A DNA stretch of 64,000 bases, from positions 380,389 through 444,388 of the forward strand of contig NZ_LMVC01000003.1 in the NCBI RefSeq assembly GCF_001510655.1. The letters run 5' to 3'. The notes under the pieces were generated by a model, which was not told the origin of the DNA, searched no databases, and saw nothing but the letters and a program-made list of their open reading frames with translations. The position numbers and the translations under genes were made by a program. Below are positions 2,446 to 61,984 of the stretch, in pieces (position 1 is the stretch's first letter; each line of letters starts with the position of its first letter). Source of the stretch: Fictibacillus sp. FJAT-27399. GTDB lineage: Bacteria > Bacillota > Bacilli > Bacillales > Fictibacillaceae.

Positions 2446-2633
2446 TTTTTTGTTTGTCTCACAGGCTTGTATAGGAATATGTTCAAGTAGAAAACTCTCT
2501 CCCCTTAAGCTTGTTCAAAAAGCGTTAAATAAGGGAGATGTGAGGCTTACAGAAGGGGGATGCTCTCCTTCTATACTCTATCACTAGGGTAGTAGGCCCT
2601 CATTTAAAGGCATAACTGCGCAGCCAGTGACGC
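2446..2633. other. Intergenic stretch without a recognisable gene
   Basis: Between the repeat after tagO and the 21-bp array I see no plausible coding frame with a ribosome site, no RNA gene and no clear promoter. Confidence 0.5.
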
Positions 2634-2759
2634 TTACTTGCAAAAATAACTGTTTTACTTGCGAAATTAGTCGGATTACTTGCGGTTCGACACAAAATAC
2701 TTGCGAAACTTATCCAATTACTTGCGAAAACCTAAACTTTACTTGCAAACTAAAGCATT
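2634..2759 (+). repeat. 21-bp tandem array 1, six units starting TTACTTGC
   Basis: The octamer TTACTTGC (once ATACTTGC) starts at 2634, 2655, 2676, 2697, 2718 and 2739, exactly 21 bp apart. The rest of each unit is variable but often continues with GAAA or GGTTCGACAC. After the last unit come TTTTTC and an A-rich tail that runs into the tagV terminator. A frame through the array encodes a 7-residue repeat with Thr-Cys in each unit, without a ribosome site. A second array with the same period lies at 61792-61917 on the other strand. Function unknown. Confidence 0.9.
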
Positions 2760-2777
2760 TTTCAAAAAAGGCACAAA

Positions 2778-2803
2778 AAAAACCCCGCCAATCGGCGGGT
2801 TTC
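2778..2803 (-). terminator. Terminator of tagV
   Basis: CCCGCC (2784-2789) and GGCGGG (2794-2799) pair around AATC; read on the minus strand the hairpin is followed by a T8 run (2775-2782 as A's). It lies 10 bp beyond the tagV stop. Confidence 0.85.
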
Positions 2804-2812
2804 TTCTTTATC

Positions 2813-3895
2813 TTATTCTCCTGTTCCCTGACTTTGCTCGCTAGTCCCATCAGAACTGCTGCTGTCAGCGGAAGCGGAGCCTTTTCCTTTATAATTAAGG
2901 ATCTCTCTAATACGGTCTCTTACTTTTTGAACGACTTGCTCATCAGGGCTGAAGTAGTAAACACCGTTAATGTATTCATCCTGTCCACCGATGTTCATGC
3001 GTTCAAGTTCTTTACTTTGAATTTGTTTGTAGAAGTTTCTCATGCCGAACATTTCTTTTAAGGAGATATTCGTTTGAACGTTGTCTCCTACAGAGTTCAG
3101 CAGGTTGTCCGCCCTTGAGATGGACTTGATGGACAGCGCTTTGTCCGCTACAGCTTTCATTGCCTGCTGCTGGCGTTCCTGGCGTCCAAAGTCCCCGCGT
3201 TTATCCTGTTTACGCATTTGTACGTAGGTTAGTGCTTCGTCGCCGTTCAGATCCATTTTTCCTTTATGGAAGTAGATCTTGTGGCCTTTCAAGTTCTTCT
3301 GATAGAAGTCGAATGGTACGTCTACTGTAATTCCACCGACAGAGTCAACAACTTCTTTGAAGCCCTGGAAGTTTGTACGTACATAGTAATCGATCGGAAC
3401 ATCAAGGAAATGCTCTACCGCATCAATCGTAGCCTGCTCTTTATGGCCTTTTTTGCCGTAAGCATAAGCATGGGTGATTTTGTCTTTGCGTCCCACATCA
3501 GGCAAGTACGTTCTAGTATCCCTTGGGATACTTACAATCGATGCTTCCTTGGTATCCGGGTTGATGGTCAGTACCATCAGCGCATCGGAATGGCCTGGTG
3601 AGCCTTTATAGTCTTCGACACCCATCAGGAGAATGTTGACAGGGTCTTTACCCATTGTGACTTTATCCATGCGAAGATCGGATTTGTTGCCATGGGCAAG
3701 TCCTTTATAGCTGTTGTCTGCCGTTGATTTAACCTTATACGCTAAATAGCCGGCATACGCGACTCCGCCCAGCATACAAAGCACAAGGAGAACGAGAATA
3801 ATACGGATCAAGCGCCGAAAAGGACGGCGTTTCCTTTTCTTGACTCTCCTTCTGACAAGCCGTGTAGGCTGCCTTTCTTCATTATAATAACTCAT
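2813..3895 (-). CDS. tagV: LytR-CpsA-Psr (LCP) family wall polymer ligase TagV-like
   Basis: LCP enzymes transfer completed anionic polymers such as teichoic acid from undecaprenyl pyrophosphate to peptidoglycan outside the membrane. The 360-residue protein has a short, strongly basic cytoplasmic tail (RRRVKKRKRR), one membrane anchor near residues 30-52 and an LCP domain from about residue 80 to 300. That domain includes NILLMGVED, SDALMVLTI, SIPRDT and the arginine-rich RGDFGRQERQQ. The C-terminus is a Ser/Gly-rich tail. Its place between tagO and yvyE matches B. subtilis yvhJ (tagV), though here it is on the opposite strand to tagO. Confidence 0.9.
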   Translation of the reverse strand: MSYYNEERQPTRLVRRRVKKRKRRPFRRLIRIILVLLVLCMLGGVAYAGYLAYKVKSTADNSYKGLAHGNKSDLRMDKVTMGKDPVNILLMGVEDYKGSPGHSDALMVLTINPDTKEASIVSIPRDTRTYLPDVGRKDKITHAYAYGKKGHKEQATIDAVEHFLDVPIDYYVRTNFQGFKEVVDSVGGITVDVPFDFYQKNLKGHKIYFHKGKMDLNGDEALTYVQMRKQDKRGDFGRQERQQQAMKAVADKALSIKSISRADNLLNSVGDNVQTNISLKEMFGMRNFYKQIQSKELERMNIGGQDEYINGVYYFSPDEQVVQKVRDRIREILNYKGKGSASADSSSSDGTSEQSQGTGE

Positions 3896-20205: not shown

Positions 20206-22827
20206 TTGTATAAAAATAAAATTATAACAAAAATTATATTCATTATTTTATCTTTAATGTTAATACTTCCTAAGTTTACTTCTGTAAAAGCTGAGGAATT
20301 GAATTCGGTTCAATCTGTCGGGGATTTAGTGAATAACGGATTTGAGTCCGGAGATTTAGCCAGTTGGAATATATTAAACAAAACAGATAGTATCGATGTT
20401 ATTAGTGCTGATAACTACACATTTCCTTACAGTGGTAATTATATGATGAGGCTGGGGACAGCTGCACTATCAAAAGATGTGAAACAGACAATTGGAGAGA
20501 ATAGTGTCTATCAAGATTTTATTGCACAGTCTCAAAATTTAACATTTCATTATAATGTTTTTACGTTTGATTACACAGGTTTTGATGAGTTCCAATATAA
20601 ACTTGAGCGACTTGATACAGGGGAAGTTGTAGCGGATTTTACTCAAGGTGGATGGGGACCATCGGGAGACACAACCTTAAAAAATACTGGATGGCAAACC
20701 GTAAGCCTTGACTTATCAAAGCAATTAGGAAAGCCACTTAGATTAACCTTTAATGGAGCAGGTACTAAAGATACTTTGTATCCTATGTGGGCTTACATAG
20801 ATATGGATCAAACTGATAATTTGGCTGGTTCTATCCTGATTAATCAACCTTCAGCTAACATGAATATAACAGAGGGAGGGCCACCAATAAGTTATCAATT
20901 ATCCTTATCCAAGCAACCAACAAATGATGTTGTTATTGATTTATCGGAAGATGCAAATACGCAAGTTTCTATACAACCGAAGCATGTTGTGTTTACAAAA
21001 GATAACTGGAATCAACCGATAACAGTACAAGTCTCCGCTATTGATGATAATGTTTACGAAGGAAACCATTTTGCCAAAATTAATCATAGTGCTACAAGCA
21101 ATGATGCTAATTATAAAAATTCAACAAAATCTTTAACAATAAATATAGGAGATAACGATACTCAAAATTCAGGATATTTTAGCATAACCTCAACTGTTTC
21201 AACAGGAAAAGGAACTGTTGAACCAGCGGCCCAAAATATTAAATTAGGAGACTCTGCTAGTATCAATTTATCACCTGAAGAAGGTTACTTTCCTCAAGTT
21301 ATGGATAATGGACTAAATGTATCAAATTTAATTATAAATAATAAATATTATATTGAAAATGTAAATCAACACCATAATGTAGTAGTTTCATATATTCCTA
21401 TAACTCCACCAAAAATTATTAAAACAGTGCCATTAAATAACGAAAGTAATGTAGGTGTAGACCAGACGGTATCTATTATGTTTAATGATAATATAACTGC
21501 TAGCACTGCATTTAATAATGTCTATTTAAAAGACAGCAGTGGAAATAACGTAGCAATTACAAAAAAAATTACAAATAACATTTTGGAAATTGGTCATGTA
21601 GAACCTTTAAAAGCAGCTACAAACTATACCCTTACTTTACCAAAAGACTCAATCCAAGACTCTTATAAAATAGGTCTTCAGAGTGAATATAGTTTAATGT
21701 TTACAACCGATAAGTCCTCAGATTCAGAGAATATTATACAAAATATTATGTTTAAACCAGCAAGTATTACTATGGGGACAGGTGAAACTGAACAATTTAT
21801 GTTAATTGCCGAAATGAGTGACGGGACCACAAAAGATGTGACAAATTTAGCGACGTATACCAAGTCAAGTGCATTTGTTACAGTGACAGGGACAGAAGGG
21901 ATATTCAAGCTTGCCGGTACTACGCCAGTCGATCAAAAGATCATGGTAACAGCCAACTATGACGGAAAAACAGCAACAAGCGAAATCACAGTGGTCGATA
22001 CCACCCCGAAACCAGTGAGCATTGCGTATGGCCCATCGAGTGTCACGATGGGTCCAGGAGAAACGAAGACGTTTAAATTAATGGCCGAGATGAGTGACGG
22101 AACCACAAAAGATGTGACAAGTTTAGCGACGTATACCAAGTCAAGTGCATTTGTTACGGTGACAGGGGCAGATGGGACATTCAAGTTGACAAGTACAACA
22201 CCGATAGGGCAAAAAATTACGGTTACATCAAACTATGCAGGCAAGACAGCTACAAACGAAATCACAGTGGTCGATACCACCCCGAAACCAGTGAGCATTG
22301 CGTATGGCCCATCGAGTGTCACGATGGGTCCAGGAGAAACGAAGACGTTTAAATTAATGGCCGAGATGAGTGACGGAACCACAAAAGATGTGACAAGTTT
22401 AGTGACGTACACCAAGTCAAGTGCATTTGTTACGGTGACAGGGGCAGATGGGACATTCAAGTTGACAAGTACAACACCGATAGGGCAAAAAATTACGGTT
22501 ACAGCAAACTATGCAGGCAAGACAGCTACAAACGAAATCACAGTGGTCGATACCACCCCGAAACCAGTGAGCATTGCGTATGACCCATCGAGTGTCACGA
22601 TGGGTCCAGGAGAAACGAAGACGTTTAAATTAATGGCCGAAATGAGTGATGGGACCACGAAAGATGTGACAAGCTTAGCTACGTATACTAAATCAAGCGG
22701 CTTTGTAACTGTGACTGGAGTAGATGGAACTATCAAACTCTCAAACGCCACGCCAGTTGGTCAAAAGATTACCATAACGGCCAATTATGGTGGTAAAACG
22801 GGAACAATTGAAATTATGGTGGAATAG
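20206..22827 (+). CDS. Secreted multi-domain surface protein with four tandem Ig-like repeats
   Basis: 873 residues. TTG at 20206 is chosen because AGAGGGAG lies 9 bases upstream and it starts a typical signal peptide (YKNKIITKIIFIILSLMLIL, cleavage near TSVKA-EE). The frame is open further upstream. Inferred domains: a jelly-roll, carbohydrate-binding-like N-terminal part (35-205), a Calx-beta-like domain (208-315), an InlB-B-like repeat (318-395), a Big_5-like domain (398-500) and four 92-residue Ig-like repeats from residue 513. Copies 2 and 3 differ at only three of 276 bases. No sorting motif or transmembrane end is seen. An adhesin or appendage-associated role is possible but unproven. 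B. subtilis has no gene here. Confidence 0.8.
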   Translation: MYKNKIITKIIFIILSLMLILPKFTSVKAEELNSVQSVGDLVNNGFESGDLASWNILNKTDSIDVISADNYTFPYSGNYMMRLGTAALSKDVKQTIGENSVYQDFIAQSQNLTFHYNVFTFDYTGFDEFQYKLERLDTGEVVADFTQGGWGPSGDTTLKNTGWQTVSLDLSKQLGKPLRLTFNGAGTKDTLYPMWAYIDMDQTDNLAGSILINQPSANMNITEGGPPISYQLSLSKQPTNDVVIDLSEDANTQVSIQPKHVVFTKDNWNQPITVQVSAIDDNVYEGNHFAKINHSATSNDANYKNSTKSLTINIGDNDTQNSGYFSITSTVSTGKGTVEPAAQNIKLGDSASINLSPEEGYFPQVMDNGLNVSNLIINNKYYIENVNQHHNVVVSYIPITPPKIIKTVPLNNESNVGVDQTVSIMFNDNITASTAFNNVYLKDSSGNNVAITKKITNNILEIGHVEPLKAATNYTLTLPKDSIQDSYKIGLQSEYSLMFTTDKSSDSENIIQNIMFKPASITMGTGETEQFMLIAEMSDGTTKDVTNLATYTKSSAFVTVTGTEGIFKLAGTTPVDQKIMVTANYDGKTATSEITVVDTTPKPVSIAYGPSSVTMGPGETKTFKLMAEMSDGTTKDVTSLATYTKSSAFVTVTGADGTFKLTSTTPIGQKITVTSNYAGKTATNEITVVDTTPKPVSIAYGPSSVTMGPGETKTFKLMAEMSDGTTKDVTSLVTYTKSSAFVTVTGADGTFKLTSTTPIGQKITVTANYAGKTATNEITVVDTTPKPVSIAYDPSSVTMGPGETKTFKLMAEMSDGTTKDVTSLATYTKSSGFVTVTGVDGTIKLSNATPVGQKITITANYGGKTGTIEIMVE
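21742..22827 (+). repeat. Four in-frame 276-bp repeats inside the surface protein gene
   Basis: Units start at 21742, 22018, 22294 and 22570, exactly 276 bp apart. Units 2 and 3 are almost identical, unit 4 diverges near its end, and unit 1 is the most diverged. The pattern points to recent tandem duplication or gene conversion, so copy number may vary between strains. Confidence 0.92.
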
Positions 22828-23063: not shown

Positions 23064-24266
23064 ATGAATCAAAAATCAAGTAAACTGTATACAAAACTAA
23101 TTACCAGTGCACTTGTAGCAGGAAGTATCGTTATGCCTGCTTTTCAAACTACTGCGTTTGCTGAGGGTTCAGACTATTTCGCAGTAAACAATAATGTAGG
23201 GACAGCTGATACTGTGACTTTTTTCAGTGCTAAAGCGAAAGATGTTGTTAAAGTATATAGTGCTGATGGAAATACGTTATTGGGATCGGGGAAAGCTTCG
23301 AAGGCAGGAGACTTAACCGTGAAACTAAAGAACCAATTAACGGAATCCAGTGTTCAAGTGAGCTTGACCAACTACAACAAAAGAGAAAGTGAAAAGGTAG
23401 ATGTTGATGTACCTGAAGAAACAACGACAGAATCCTTATCATCAGACAATATCGTTGTTAACAATAATGTGGGTACTGCAGATACTATAGTAGTTAGTGG
23501 AGTTAAGGCTAAAGATGTTGTGAGAGTGTACAATGCTGCGGGTGAAATCTTGCTGGGATCAGCAAAAGCATCGAAAGACGGGGCCGTAACGATAAAACTT
23601 AGATCTCAGTTGGCAGAAGATACTGTTCAAGTAAGCTTGAGTACATATAACAGCCTGGAAAGTGACAAAATAGATGCTGAAGTACCTGAAGAAATGGCAT
23701 CTGATGAGTTATCAGCGGATTCGATTACCGTTAGTAATAATGTAGGCAACTCAGACACCGTATTCATTACGGGACTTAAAGCGAAAGATGTTGTAAAAGT
23801 GTATAACGCATCTGGCGAAACCCTCTTGGGGACAGGAAAGGTATCTAAAGATGGAGATTTAACGGTGAAATTGAAGGCTCAGCTGGCAGAAGAAAGTGTT
23901 CAAGTGAGTTTGACCAGCTACAACAAAATTGAAAGTGAAAAAGTTGATGCTGAGGTACCTGAAGAAACGACAACAGAAGCTTTAACACCGGAAACTATTA
24001 TAGTTAACAATAACGTAGATATGGCAGACACTGTAGTTGTCCCAGGCCGTAAAGCGAAAGATGTTGTGAAAGTGTACAATGGATCTGGTGAGACCCTGCT
24101 TGGTACAGCGAAGGCATCCAAAGGTGGCGATGTGACGGTGAAACTGAAGGCACAATTAACAGAAGAAGGCATTGTCCAAGTAAGCCTGACCAGCTATAAC
24201 AGCCTGGAAGGTGAAAAAGTGGATGTTGATGTACCGGAGGAAGAAATCACAGAGTTTCCCAATTAA
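23064..24266 (+). CDS. Secreted protein of four 91-residue repeats, SigD-type promoter
   Basis: 400 residues with a signal peptide (basic start, hydrophobic LITSALVAGSIVMPA, cleavage near TTAFA-EG). The rest is four repeats whose VNNNVG-type starts lie exactly 273 bp apart (23187, 23460, 23733, 24006). Each has a KAKDVVKVYNASGETLLG segment, K-x-QL-x-E-x-VQVSLTSYN and ends in EVPEE; the fold is probably an Ig-like beta sandwich (Big_6-like). The linkers are acidic. No anchor motif. GGGGG precedes the ATG. Its promoter and place between hag and flaG suggest co-expression with flagella; function unknown. Confidence 0.82.
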   Translation: MNQKSSKLYTKLITSALVAGSIVMPAFQTTAFAEGSDYFAVNNNVGTADTVTFFSAKAKDVVKVYSADGNTLLGSGKASKAGDLTVKLKNQLTESSVQVSLTNYNKRESEKVDVDVPEETTTESLSSDNIVVNNNVGTADTIVVSGVKAKDVVRVYNAAGEILLGSAKASKDGAVTIKLRSQLAEDTVQVSLSTYNSLESDKIDAEVPEEMASDELSADSITVSNNVGNSDTVFITGLKAKDVVKVYNASGETLLGTGKVSKDGDLTVKLKAQLAEESVQVSLTSYNKIESEKVDAEVPEETTTEALTPETIIVNNNVDMADTVVVPGRKAKDVVKVYNGSGETLLGTAKASKGGDVTVKLKAQLTEEGIVQVSLTSYNSLEGEKVDVDVPEEEITEFPN

Positions 24267-60631: not shown

Positions 60632-61730
60632 ATGGAATTAGTAGAGATTAAGCAGGAACTGAACATTATGGCTAAGCGATTAGCGGACTTCAGGGGGTCT
60701 CTTTGACCTCGATAACAAAAAAGCAAAGATAGCAGAGCTCGATGAAAAAATGAGCGCACCGGCATTCTGGGATAACCAGAATGCTGCGCAAACGGTCATC
60801 AGTGAAGCAAACGGATTGAAAGAGCAAGTGAACCAGTTCGAAGATTTAAACGGACGTTACGAAGATCTTGAAGTCGCACATGAAATGCTGAAGGAAGAAC
60901 CCGATGCTGACATGCAGAAGGAACTTGAGCGTGATTTAAAGGAACTGTCCAATGCTTTAAATACATTTGAGCTTTCTCTTCTTTTAAACCAGCCATACGA
61001 CAGGAACAATGCGATACTCGAACTTCATCCGGGTGCTGGGGGGACCGAGTCACAGGACTGGGCTTCCATGCTTCTCCGCATGTACACACGCTATGCGGAA
61101 CGTAAAGGATTCAAGGTAGAAACGCTGGATTACCTGCCTGGAGATGAAGCGGGTGTAAAAAGCGTAACGCTTGGCATTAAAGGCCACAATGCATACGGTT
61201 ATTTAAAAGCGGAAAAAGGAGTTCACCGATTGGTCAGGATCTCTCCATTTGACTCATCGGGACGCCGGCATACGTCGTTCGTATCATGCGACGTCGTTCC
61301 AGAGATCAATGATGATTCTGAAATTGATGTTCGTACCGAAGATTTAAAAGTGGACACGTACCGGGCCAGCGGAGCAGGCGGCCAGCACGTTAACACGACG
61401 GACTCGGCCGTACGGATTACCCATATTCCTACAAACACCGTCGTATCGTGCCAAACTGAGCGCTCACAGATCAAGAACCGTGACCATGCGATGAAAATGC
61501 TGAAAGCGAAACTTCTTCAGCGGAAGATTGAAGAGCAGCAGGCAGAATTGGCTGAAATCCGCGGAGAACAAAAAGAGATCGGGTGGGGAAGCCAGATTCG
61601 TTCCTACGTTTTCCATCCATACAGCCTCGTAAAAGACCACCGTACCAATACGGAGATGGGGAACGTTCAAGCAGTTATGGACGGAGACATCGAAAGCTTT
61701 ATCGACGCGTATCTGCGTTCTAAAATTTAA
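60632..61730 (+). CDS. prfB: Peptide chain release factor 2, with programmed +1 frameshift
   Basis: RF2 terminates translation at UGA and UAA. The first 24 codons run from ATG 60632 (site GAGGTGG) to CTT, then an in-frame TGA at 60704-60706. A +1 shift at CTT-T continues in the frame GAC CTC GAT to the stop at 61728-61730, giving 365 residues in total. The GGQ catalytic motif is at about 249-251 in [19 protein letters not shown]; the stop-codon-reading SPF segment is in [15 protein letters not shown]. Internal starts such as ATG 60750 are not used. Confidence 0.96.
60692..60707 (+). promoter_or_regulatory. RF2 autoregulatory frameshift site
   Basis: AGGGGG (60692-60697) acts as an internal Shine-Dalgarno three bases before the slippery CTT TGA C (60701-60707). 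Low RF2 lets the ribosome pause at TGA and shift, the classic feedback loop. Confidence 0.95.
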
Positions 61731-61743
61731 TAGGATAAGGGAA

Positions 61744-61776
61744 AAGGCTGGTCCTGTGTGGGCCAGCCTTTTTTTG
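61744..61776 (+). terminator. Terminator of prfB
   Basis: AAGGCTGG pairs with CCAGCCTT (61763-61770), followed by T7 in all. Confidence 0.92.
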
Positions 61777-61791
61777 TATTTTTTTTATGAA

Positions 61792-61917
61792 AATGATGCG
61801 TTTTGCAAGTAAACCTAGTCGAACCGCAAGTAAGTCTTTTCGAACTGCAAGTAAACATAGCATTTTCGCAAATAACGCGAACCGAACTGCAAGTAAAGCG
61901 TGTCGAACCGCAAGTAA
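61792..61917 (-). repeat. 21-bp tandem array 2, six units, minus strand
   Basis: On the plus strand GCAAGTAA (once GCAAATAA) starts at 61805, 61826, 61847, 61868, 61889 and 61910, exactly 21 bp apart. Read on the minus strand the units begin TTACTTGC as in array 1. Its first unit starts TTACTTGCGGTTCGACAC, identical over 18 bases to unit 3 of array 1. The last unit runs into an A-rich tail and then the prfB terminator, the same arrangement as array 1 with tagV. Confidence 0.92.
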
Positions 61918-61984
61918 TGGCACGTAATGGCACGCACGAGCCTCGGCAGAGCCTGCTAACATAGATCTTTTCATTCCAAAATGA

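Follow-up and report, generated by a model that had tools for sequence, protein, structure and literature searches.

Dispersed six-unit arrays with a 21-bp period behind gene ends in Fictibacillus: possible operator arrays of a cooperative DNA-binding protein

The two arrays of 21-bp direct repeats in the window (the whole stretch of 64,000 nucleotides that was analysed) belong to a set of about 20 arrays dispersed over the chromosome of Fictibacillus, a soil bacterium, behind the 3' ends of genes and rRNA operons, mostly consisting of six units in which a conserved 8-bp word, GCAAGTAA, is followed by 13 nt. The word itself is the target of purifying selection, and other words occupy the same 21-bp architecture elsewhere in the order. 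Tentatively, we regard the arrays as phased operator arrays for a cooperative DNA-binding protein, most likely forming a boundary or roadblock behind terminators.

The features of the window are collected in Table 1. Array 2, behind prfB, has its cores at 61805, 61826, 61847, 61868, 61889 and 61910, i.e., at strict 21-bp steps, and the fourth core is GCAAATAA, with one mismatch to GCAAGTAA. Array 1 has the same layout on the opposite strand, behind a LytR-family gene and its terminator. The orthologues of arrays 1 and 2 in G023, a genome of the same species, are at positions 3589401 (locus L206) and 3532858 (locus L205). A preliminary description of array 2 had reported six units, the 21-bp period and an 18-base unit shared exactly with array 1, all of which was borne out: TTACTTGCGGTTCGACAC occurs at 2676-2693 on the forward strand and at 61900-61917 on the reverse strand. 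When up to three mismatches are allowed the window holds four matches to it, against 0.04 expected, and none of 100 shuffles reached four. The extent then given, 61792-61917, covers most of the array, but its borders had to be moved, as 61792 lies inside the head and the last unit ends at 61930. What had been described as an A-rich tail running into a terminator is the conserved head; the terminator itself is present. The two flanking genes, named prfB and tagV at the time, do end at the arrays, and by Pfam the second is a member of the LytR_CpsA_Psr family.

Table 1. Array features of the window (window positions) and related sites in other genomes (locus:positions)
Feature	Position	Strand	Details
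Array 2	61805..61930	+	six 21-bp units (GCAAGTAA + 13 nt), sense with prfB
Array 2 head, conserved 22 nt	61783..61804	+	TTTTATGAAAATGATGCGTTTT; shared by nearly all class I arrays
prfB intrinsic terminator	61742..61775	+	GGCTGG...CCAGCC + T-tract; also found in terminator scan of orthologue L205
prfB (peptide chain release factor 2), upstream of array 2	60750..61730	+	Pfam PCRF and RF-1
Array 1	2634..2746	-	six cores (TTACTTGC on + strand), sense with LytR-family gene
Array 1 head, divergent copy	2747..2768	-	TTTTTGAAAAATGCTTTAGTTT; orthologue L206
LytR-family gene intrinsic terminator	2776..2807	-	CCCGCC...GGCGGG + T-tract; terminator scan of orthologue L206
LytR_CpsA_Psr family gene ("tagV" earlier), upstream of array 1	2813..3895	-	Pfam PF03816
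Word-replaced sister sites	L237:1430-1715 vs L222; L236:18000-18320 vs L221		
Psychrobacillus duplicated blocks	L071:6448-7875; L067:1347-1906; L090:1465-2273		

The open reading frames that run through the arrays (2627-3061 on the forward strand and 61720-61974 on the reverse strand) have no Pfam match and are probably spurious repeat-peptide genes, of a kind that the arrays generate in annotations and that makes them an annotation hazard. Elsewhere in the window, a long hairpin (GGTGCCAGGCACC...GGTGCCTGGCACC, 2396-2452) lies behind the gene at 1276-2385 and faces array 1, and two long open reading frames contain tandem repeats of 276 bp (3.4 copies with 91% matches, 21802-22727) and 273 bp (3.3 copies, 23349-24242).

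Arrays of the GCAAGTAA word in Fictibacillus are termed class I here. The pattern search found about 22 of them in the genome of the window (G000) and 20 in G023, which has a 4.35-Mb chromosome, while the reversed-pattern control of the three-core search returned zero arrays. The same arrays are also present in G021 and in contigs of Fictibacillus fluitans. Six units were counted in 34 of the 40 class I array loci examined, and nearly all of the 20 G023 arrays have exactly six. Read on the GCAAGTAA strand, the order is a gene or rRNA operon, in most cases an intrinsic terminator, the head TTTTATGAAAATGAYGTGNTTT, and six copies of GCAAGTAA plus 13 nt. All units of an array are direct, non-palindromic and in one orientation; the head stands at one end only and no tail is common to the class I arrays. 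A terminator was located just upstream of 12 of the 20 G023 arrays, with one mirror case.

The motif TGTCGAA, which we take to be the Spo0A 0A-box consensus, occurs in nearly every class I array (G023 loci L196-L215) at unit position 12, in the sense direction only and mostly in units 1, 3 and 5; 31 of its 164 copies in 1.6 Mb fall within 2.5 kb of arrays. In the window, TGTCGAAC is found in unit 4 from the head of array 1 (near 2684-2690, reverse strand) and in unit 5 of array 2 (near 61901-61907). Spo0A as the binder is retained only as a lead, since the motif was not seen in Psychrobacillus arrays.

Across 16 orthologous pairs from G000 and G023, and counting only sites still recognisable as arrays, the cores differ at 5 of 760 sites (0.7%) and the spacers at 102 of 1223 (8%; core versus spacer p=1e-16). 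The heads are intermediate (15/340, 4.4%), and the flanks differ at 13-14% of sites (301/2237 downstream, 289/2010 upstream). The core is thus far less divergent than the spacers and flanks around it, which places the word under purifying selection. Comparison of 19 single-copy sites between the two genomes gave 16 intact arrays, two sites with arrays of other words and one without an array. At the two replaced sites, GCAAGTAA in G000 corresponds to another word in the sister strain, and one of these two replacing arrays points the other way. In G020 the prfB site retains no more than a head-like remnant, and in G025 (L245) the array there is cut after two units by an IS3-like-looking insertion. 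MITEs have terminal inverted repeats and a target duplication; no clean empty site was seen here among the sister sites of prfB and three other loci.

Gene contexts were assigned with a simple gene caller and not from curated annotation. On this basis the G023 arrays of all words are found in 19 convergent, 16 tandem-sense, 3 tandem-antisense and 3 divergent contexts, so that sense exceeds antisense in tandem contexts (p=0.002) and convergent gaps exceed divergent gaps (p=0.0004). Relative to other gaps of at least 150 bp, convergent gaps are about six-fold enriched (p=5e-7), a value that is approximate because an array lengthens its own gap, and divergent gaps are depleted (p=0.005). The corresponding counts are 8, 7, 3 and 1 in Psychrobacillus, and 17, 8, 12 and 3 in ten other genomes with mostly other words. 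The link to gene 3' ends is general, whereas polarity belongs to the GCAAGTAA word and to Fictibacillus. Neither random orientation nor loss of the 3'-end link was found in the G023 survey, in keeping with the dispersed, orientation-aware family that the preliminary description had supposed from two arrays. The family proved to be only one among many words with a common 21-bp architecture, and orientation-awareness, which holds in Fictibacillus, does not extend to the other genera and words, though the 3'-end link does.

Apart from rRNA operons, the upstream genes examined are ordinary. Eight strong 5S genes were counted in G023. In five of the rRNA operons a terminator comes immediately after 5S, and each of these terminators is followed by an array (four GCAAGTAA arrays and one TTAATTGAGCC array); the other three run on into tRNA clusters. 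One rRNA operon is followed by the F array in antisense orientation. Weak second 5S rRNA copies were noticed beyond the arrays of two rRNA operons (L198:4350-4468 and L216:3683-3801). Rfam reported no family at the arrays, and an rRNA, tRNA or riboswitch identity was rejected on that ground. A coding peptide repeat was also considered. Frame 0 at first looked open, and its ATG falls within the head (MKMMRFASK...), yet stops come early in other arrays and several frames behave alike: none is open in all arrays, and several on both strands are more open than in shuffles. No single reading frame being favoured, the arrays are not coding.

The replacement of arrays at sister sites led us to a de novo periodicity scan, which covered 1.6 Mb of G023. 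Lags of 20-22 and 40-43 dominate among the noncoding periodic segments near the origin. The other words sit in the frame TTTnG-N4-TAAA, likewise with a period of 21 bp, and fall into class II (GGACAG, GGCCAG, GGCGGG, GGCTAG) and class III (GAACA, GAAAA, GAGAA, GATAA), each with its own head (GTAGTTTACCATAATC in class II, TGTCGAAA...GTGTCGCGTATAAACG in class III). The class III heads contain three boxes similar to TGTCGAA, 10-11 bp apart. A detector based on the frame found 32 arrays in these 1.6 Mb of G023 against 1 in the reversed sequence. Three frame units at 21 bp, with up to two mismatches, were present in 66 of 397 genomes and 36 of 135 genera of the order, the reversed control being almost empty; lineage-specific words include TTTATTAGCCAAA, TTTATTATCGAAA, TTTATGAACAAAA and TTTATCGGCGAAA. 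No match (up to one mismatch) occurred among 184 genomes of a class-wide sample outside the order. The period stays at 21 bp whatever the word, although some steps are of 20 bp; over 56 arrays of other words the mean is 20.85.

Psychrobacillus has the GCAAGTAA word itself at the same period, with six units in 32 of 41 arrays and with a different head and spacers. Whole blocks of six units recur there in tandem, duplicated up to eight times at intervals of 156-194 bp (Table 1). More distant matches in the TACTTGC scan (Bacteroidetes, cyanobacterial and other) are homogeneous tandem repeats with near-identical spacers and were judged unrelated. A phage origin was set aside, as the sole viral match was in one contig.

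We envisage the following mechanism. The repeated word, here GCAAGTAA, would be recognised by its sequence in double-stranded DNA. Steps of 21 bp would bring every site onto one helix face, and five to six protein units could bind side by side into a single nucleoprotein complex about 105-126 bp long. Placed in the intergenic DNA that immediately follows a terminator, such an array would most likely act as a boundary that stops RNA polymerases leaking through the terminator and separates convergent units, and the conserved head probably sets the end and polarity of the assembly. Constraint on the word and not on the A/T tracts argues for specific recognition, the step of two B-DNA turns argues for duplex DNA and side-by-side binding, and the fixed unit number, shared by unrelated genera, speaks for a defined size of the complex. 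The roadblock role is suggested by the location behind terminators. The random orientation of other words outside Fictibacillus and the antisense F array weaken a roadblock that is polar. With their patchy distribution in the order, the arrays are dispensable.

Another explanation is topological. Phased DNA might capture gyrase or another wrapping protein where positive supercoils collect, beyond units with heavy transcription and in the gaps of convergent gene pairs, and would then be functionally like BIME-2 of E. coli. The arrays do lie behind rRNA operons and in convergent gaps, and in Fictibacillus class I they provide about 126 bp with A/T tracts phased at 10.5 bp (R 0.84 versus 0.56 ± 0.04 with spacers shuffled). 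In E. coli, gyrase builds up in BIME-2 and in the DNA that follows rRNA operons, but the sites it takes downstream are not encoded in the sequence (PMC6379681), which we count against this explanation. Moreover, the GC-containing word is far better conserved than the A/T tracts, Psychrobacillus lacks spacer-tract phasing beyond the core (0.51 versus 0.46), and a wrapping enzyme is not expected to need exact words. We consider topological sites unlikely.

The position of the arrays on the chromosome bears on a role in its organisation or segregation, with centromere-like arrays marking the origin-proximal region for nucleoid folding or sporulation, in a layout analogous to ParR-parC or RacA sites. 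The G023 chromosome has dnaA at position 22 and a dif-like site at 2.27 Mb. None of its 20 class I arrays is further than 1.25 Mb from dnaA, the median distance being 260 kb (KS p=1e-6), and none is near the dif-like site; the 20 loci span about 2.5 Mb. Arrays of all words number 25 in 0.8 Mb near the origin, 5 in 0.4 Mb of mid-arm and 2 in 0.4 Mb near the terminus, and the GCAAGTAA strand has leading-strand sense in 17 of the 20 class I arrays. So strong an origin bias would not be expected if the arrays were nothing but boundaries behind terminators, and it counts against that role. However, sites of chromosome organisation would have no need to be tied so closely to terminators and the 3' ends of genes, the listed array positions in other genera look spread out, and the leading-strand bias is confounded with gene direction; 6 of 23 arrays of any word, like array 1 of the window, follow lagging-strand genes. 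Such a role seems improbable to us.

We assign a similarly low probability to a selfish dispersed element, i.e., a non-autonomous repeat copied into terminator regions, whose lineages the words and heads would mark. Head and array behave as a unit, and the word swaps in sister genomes, the duplication of whole six-unit blocks in Psychrobacillus, the head-only remnant at prfB in G020 and the patchy distribution are all consistent with it. Against it, no second end, target duplication or mobility gene was seen, the core is under strong selection at fixed positions, the unit number is identical in distant genera, and the viral match is a single one. An RNA-level element, in which readthrough or antisense RNA with six GCAAGUAA sites is bound by a protein or small RNA, is very improbable: the GCAAGTAA word does lie in sense behind genes in two genera, but duplex DNA is indicated both by the helical step of 20/21 bp and by the pseudo-symmetry of the TTT...AAA frame, the arrays are usually behind the terminator, orientation is random in other genera, and Rfam places no family there. 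A polar replication-fork barrier protecting gene 3' ends, like the eukaryotic rDNA barriers, would fit the polarity and rRNA 3'-end location in Fictibacillus, but is highly unlikely because arrays also follow lagging-strand genes, where they would block normal forks.

Returning to phased operator arrays, it is conceivable, though somewhat doubtful, that they form an order-wide system of genome architecture, in which families of DNA-binding proteins of changing specificity would assemble as five- to six-unit complexes on 21-bp phased arrays and punctuate the ends of transcription units, one word giving way to another between species and, at a single site, even between sister strains. The strict geometry of 21 bp and about six units, the measurable selection on an 8-bp word and the presence of arrays behind every G023 rRNA operon that ends directly in a terminator make a binder behind terminators directly testable, and word replacement between relatives is a natural experiment in protein-DNA co-evolution.

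No description of these arrays was found in the open-access literature, with the words themselves included as queries, and within that literature the earlier statement that they could not be assigned to a described repeat class is upheld. To our knowledge, dispersed gene-end repeats in Bacillales are little described. The bcr repeats of the Bacillus cereus group are dispersed, intergenic and from Bacillales; they are not known as 21-bp direct-repeat arrays. The arrays lack a defining feature of CRISPR arrays, coding tandem repeats, iterons and REP/BIME elements. CRISPR arrays have identical repeats of about 21-48 bp, unique spacers and cas genes, whereas only 8 bp are constant here, the spacers of different arrays have motifs in common (TGTCGAAC) and there are about 20 separate six-unit arrays. 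Coding tandem repeats have one open reading frame through the array, which these do not, and the helically phased A/T tracts of curved DNA are seen in Fictibacillus but not beyond the core in Psychrobacillus.

Closer likenesses are found among protein-bound repeats. Plasmid iterons (R6K, P1) are direct repeats of about two helical turns in five to seven copies, cooperatively bound, and the arrays share with them the single orientation and a length near 21 bp. Unlike iterons, they form no origin cluster beside a rep gene but about 20 loci dispersed on the chromosome at gene ends, with 13-nt spacers free to vary. The tandem repeats of parC, with a period of about 20 bp, are bound by ParR as one nucleoprotein; the layout is similar, but the present arrays are at many sites and at terminators. 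In eukaryotes, polymerase is blocked immediately downstream of rRNA genes at repeated binding sites for proteins (TTF-I Sal boxes, Reb1 sites); these belong to another domain of life, and the arrays here serve many protein genes too and have a putative binder. The REP/BIME elements of enterobacteria are likewise dispersed and extragenic, often at gene 3' ends or behind terminators, with a possible gyrase link, but REPs are hairpin-forming palindromes in alternating orientation, whereas the units here are direct and non-palindromic, at exactly 21 bp and in one orientation. There is a substantial chance that the arrays are a new kind of chromosome element. In kind they are dispersed extragenic repeats, with a layout that resembles iterons and parC and a location that resembles REP/BIME.
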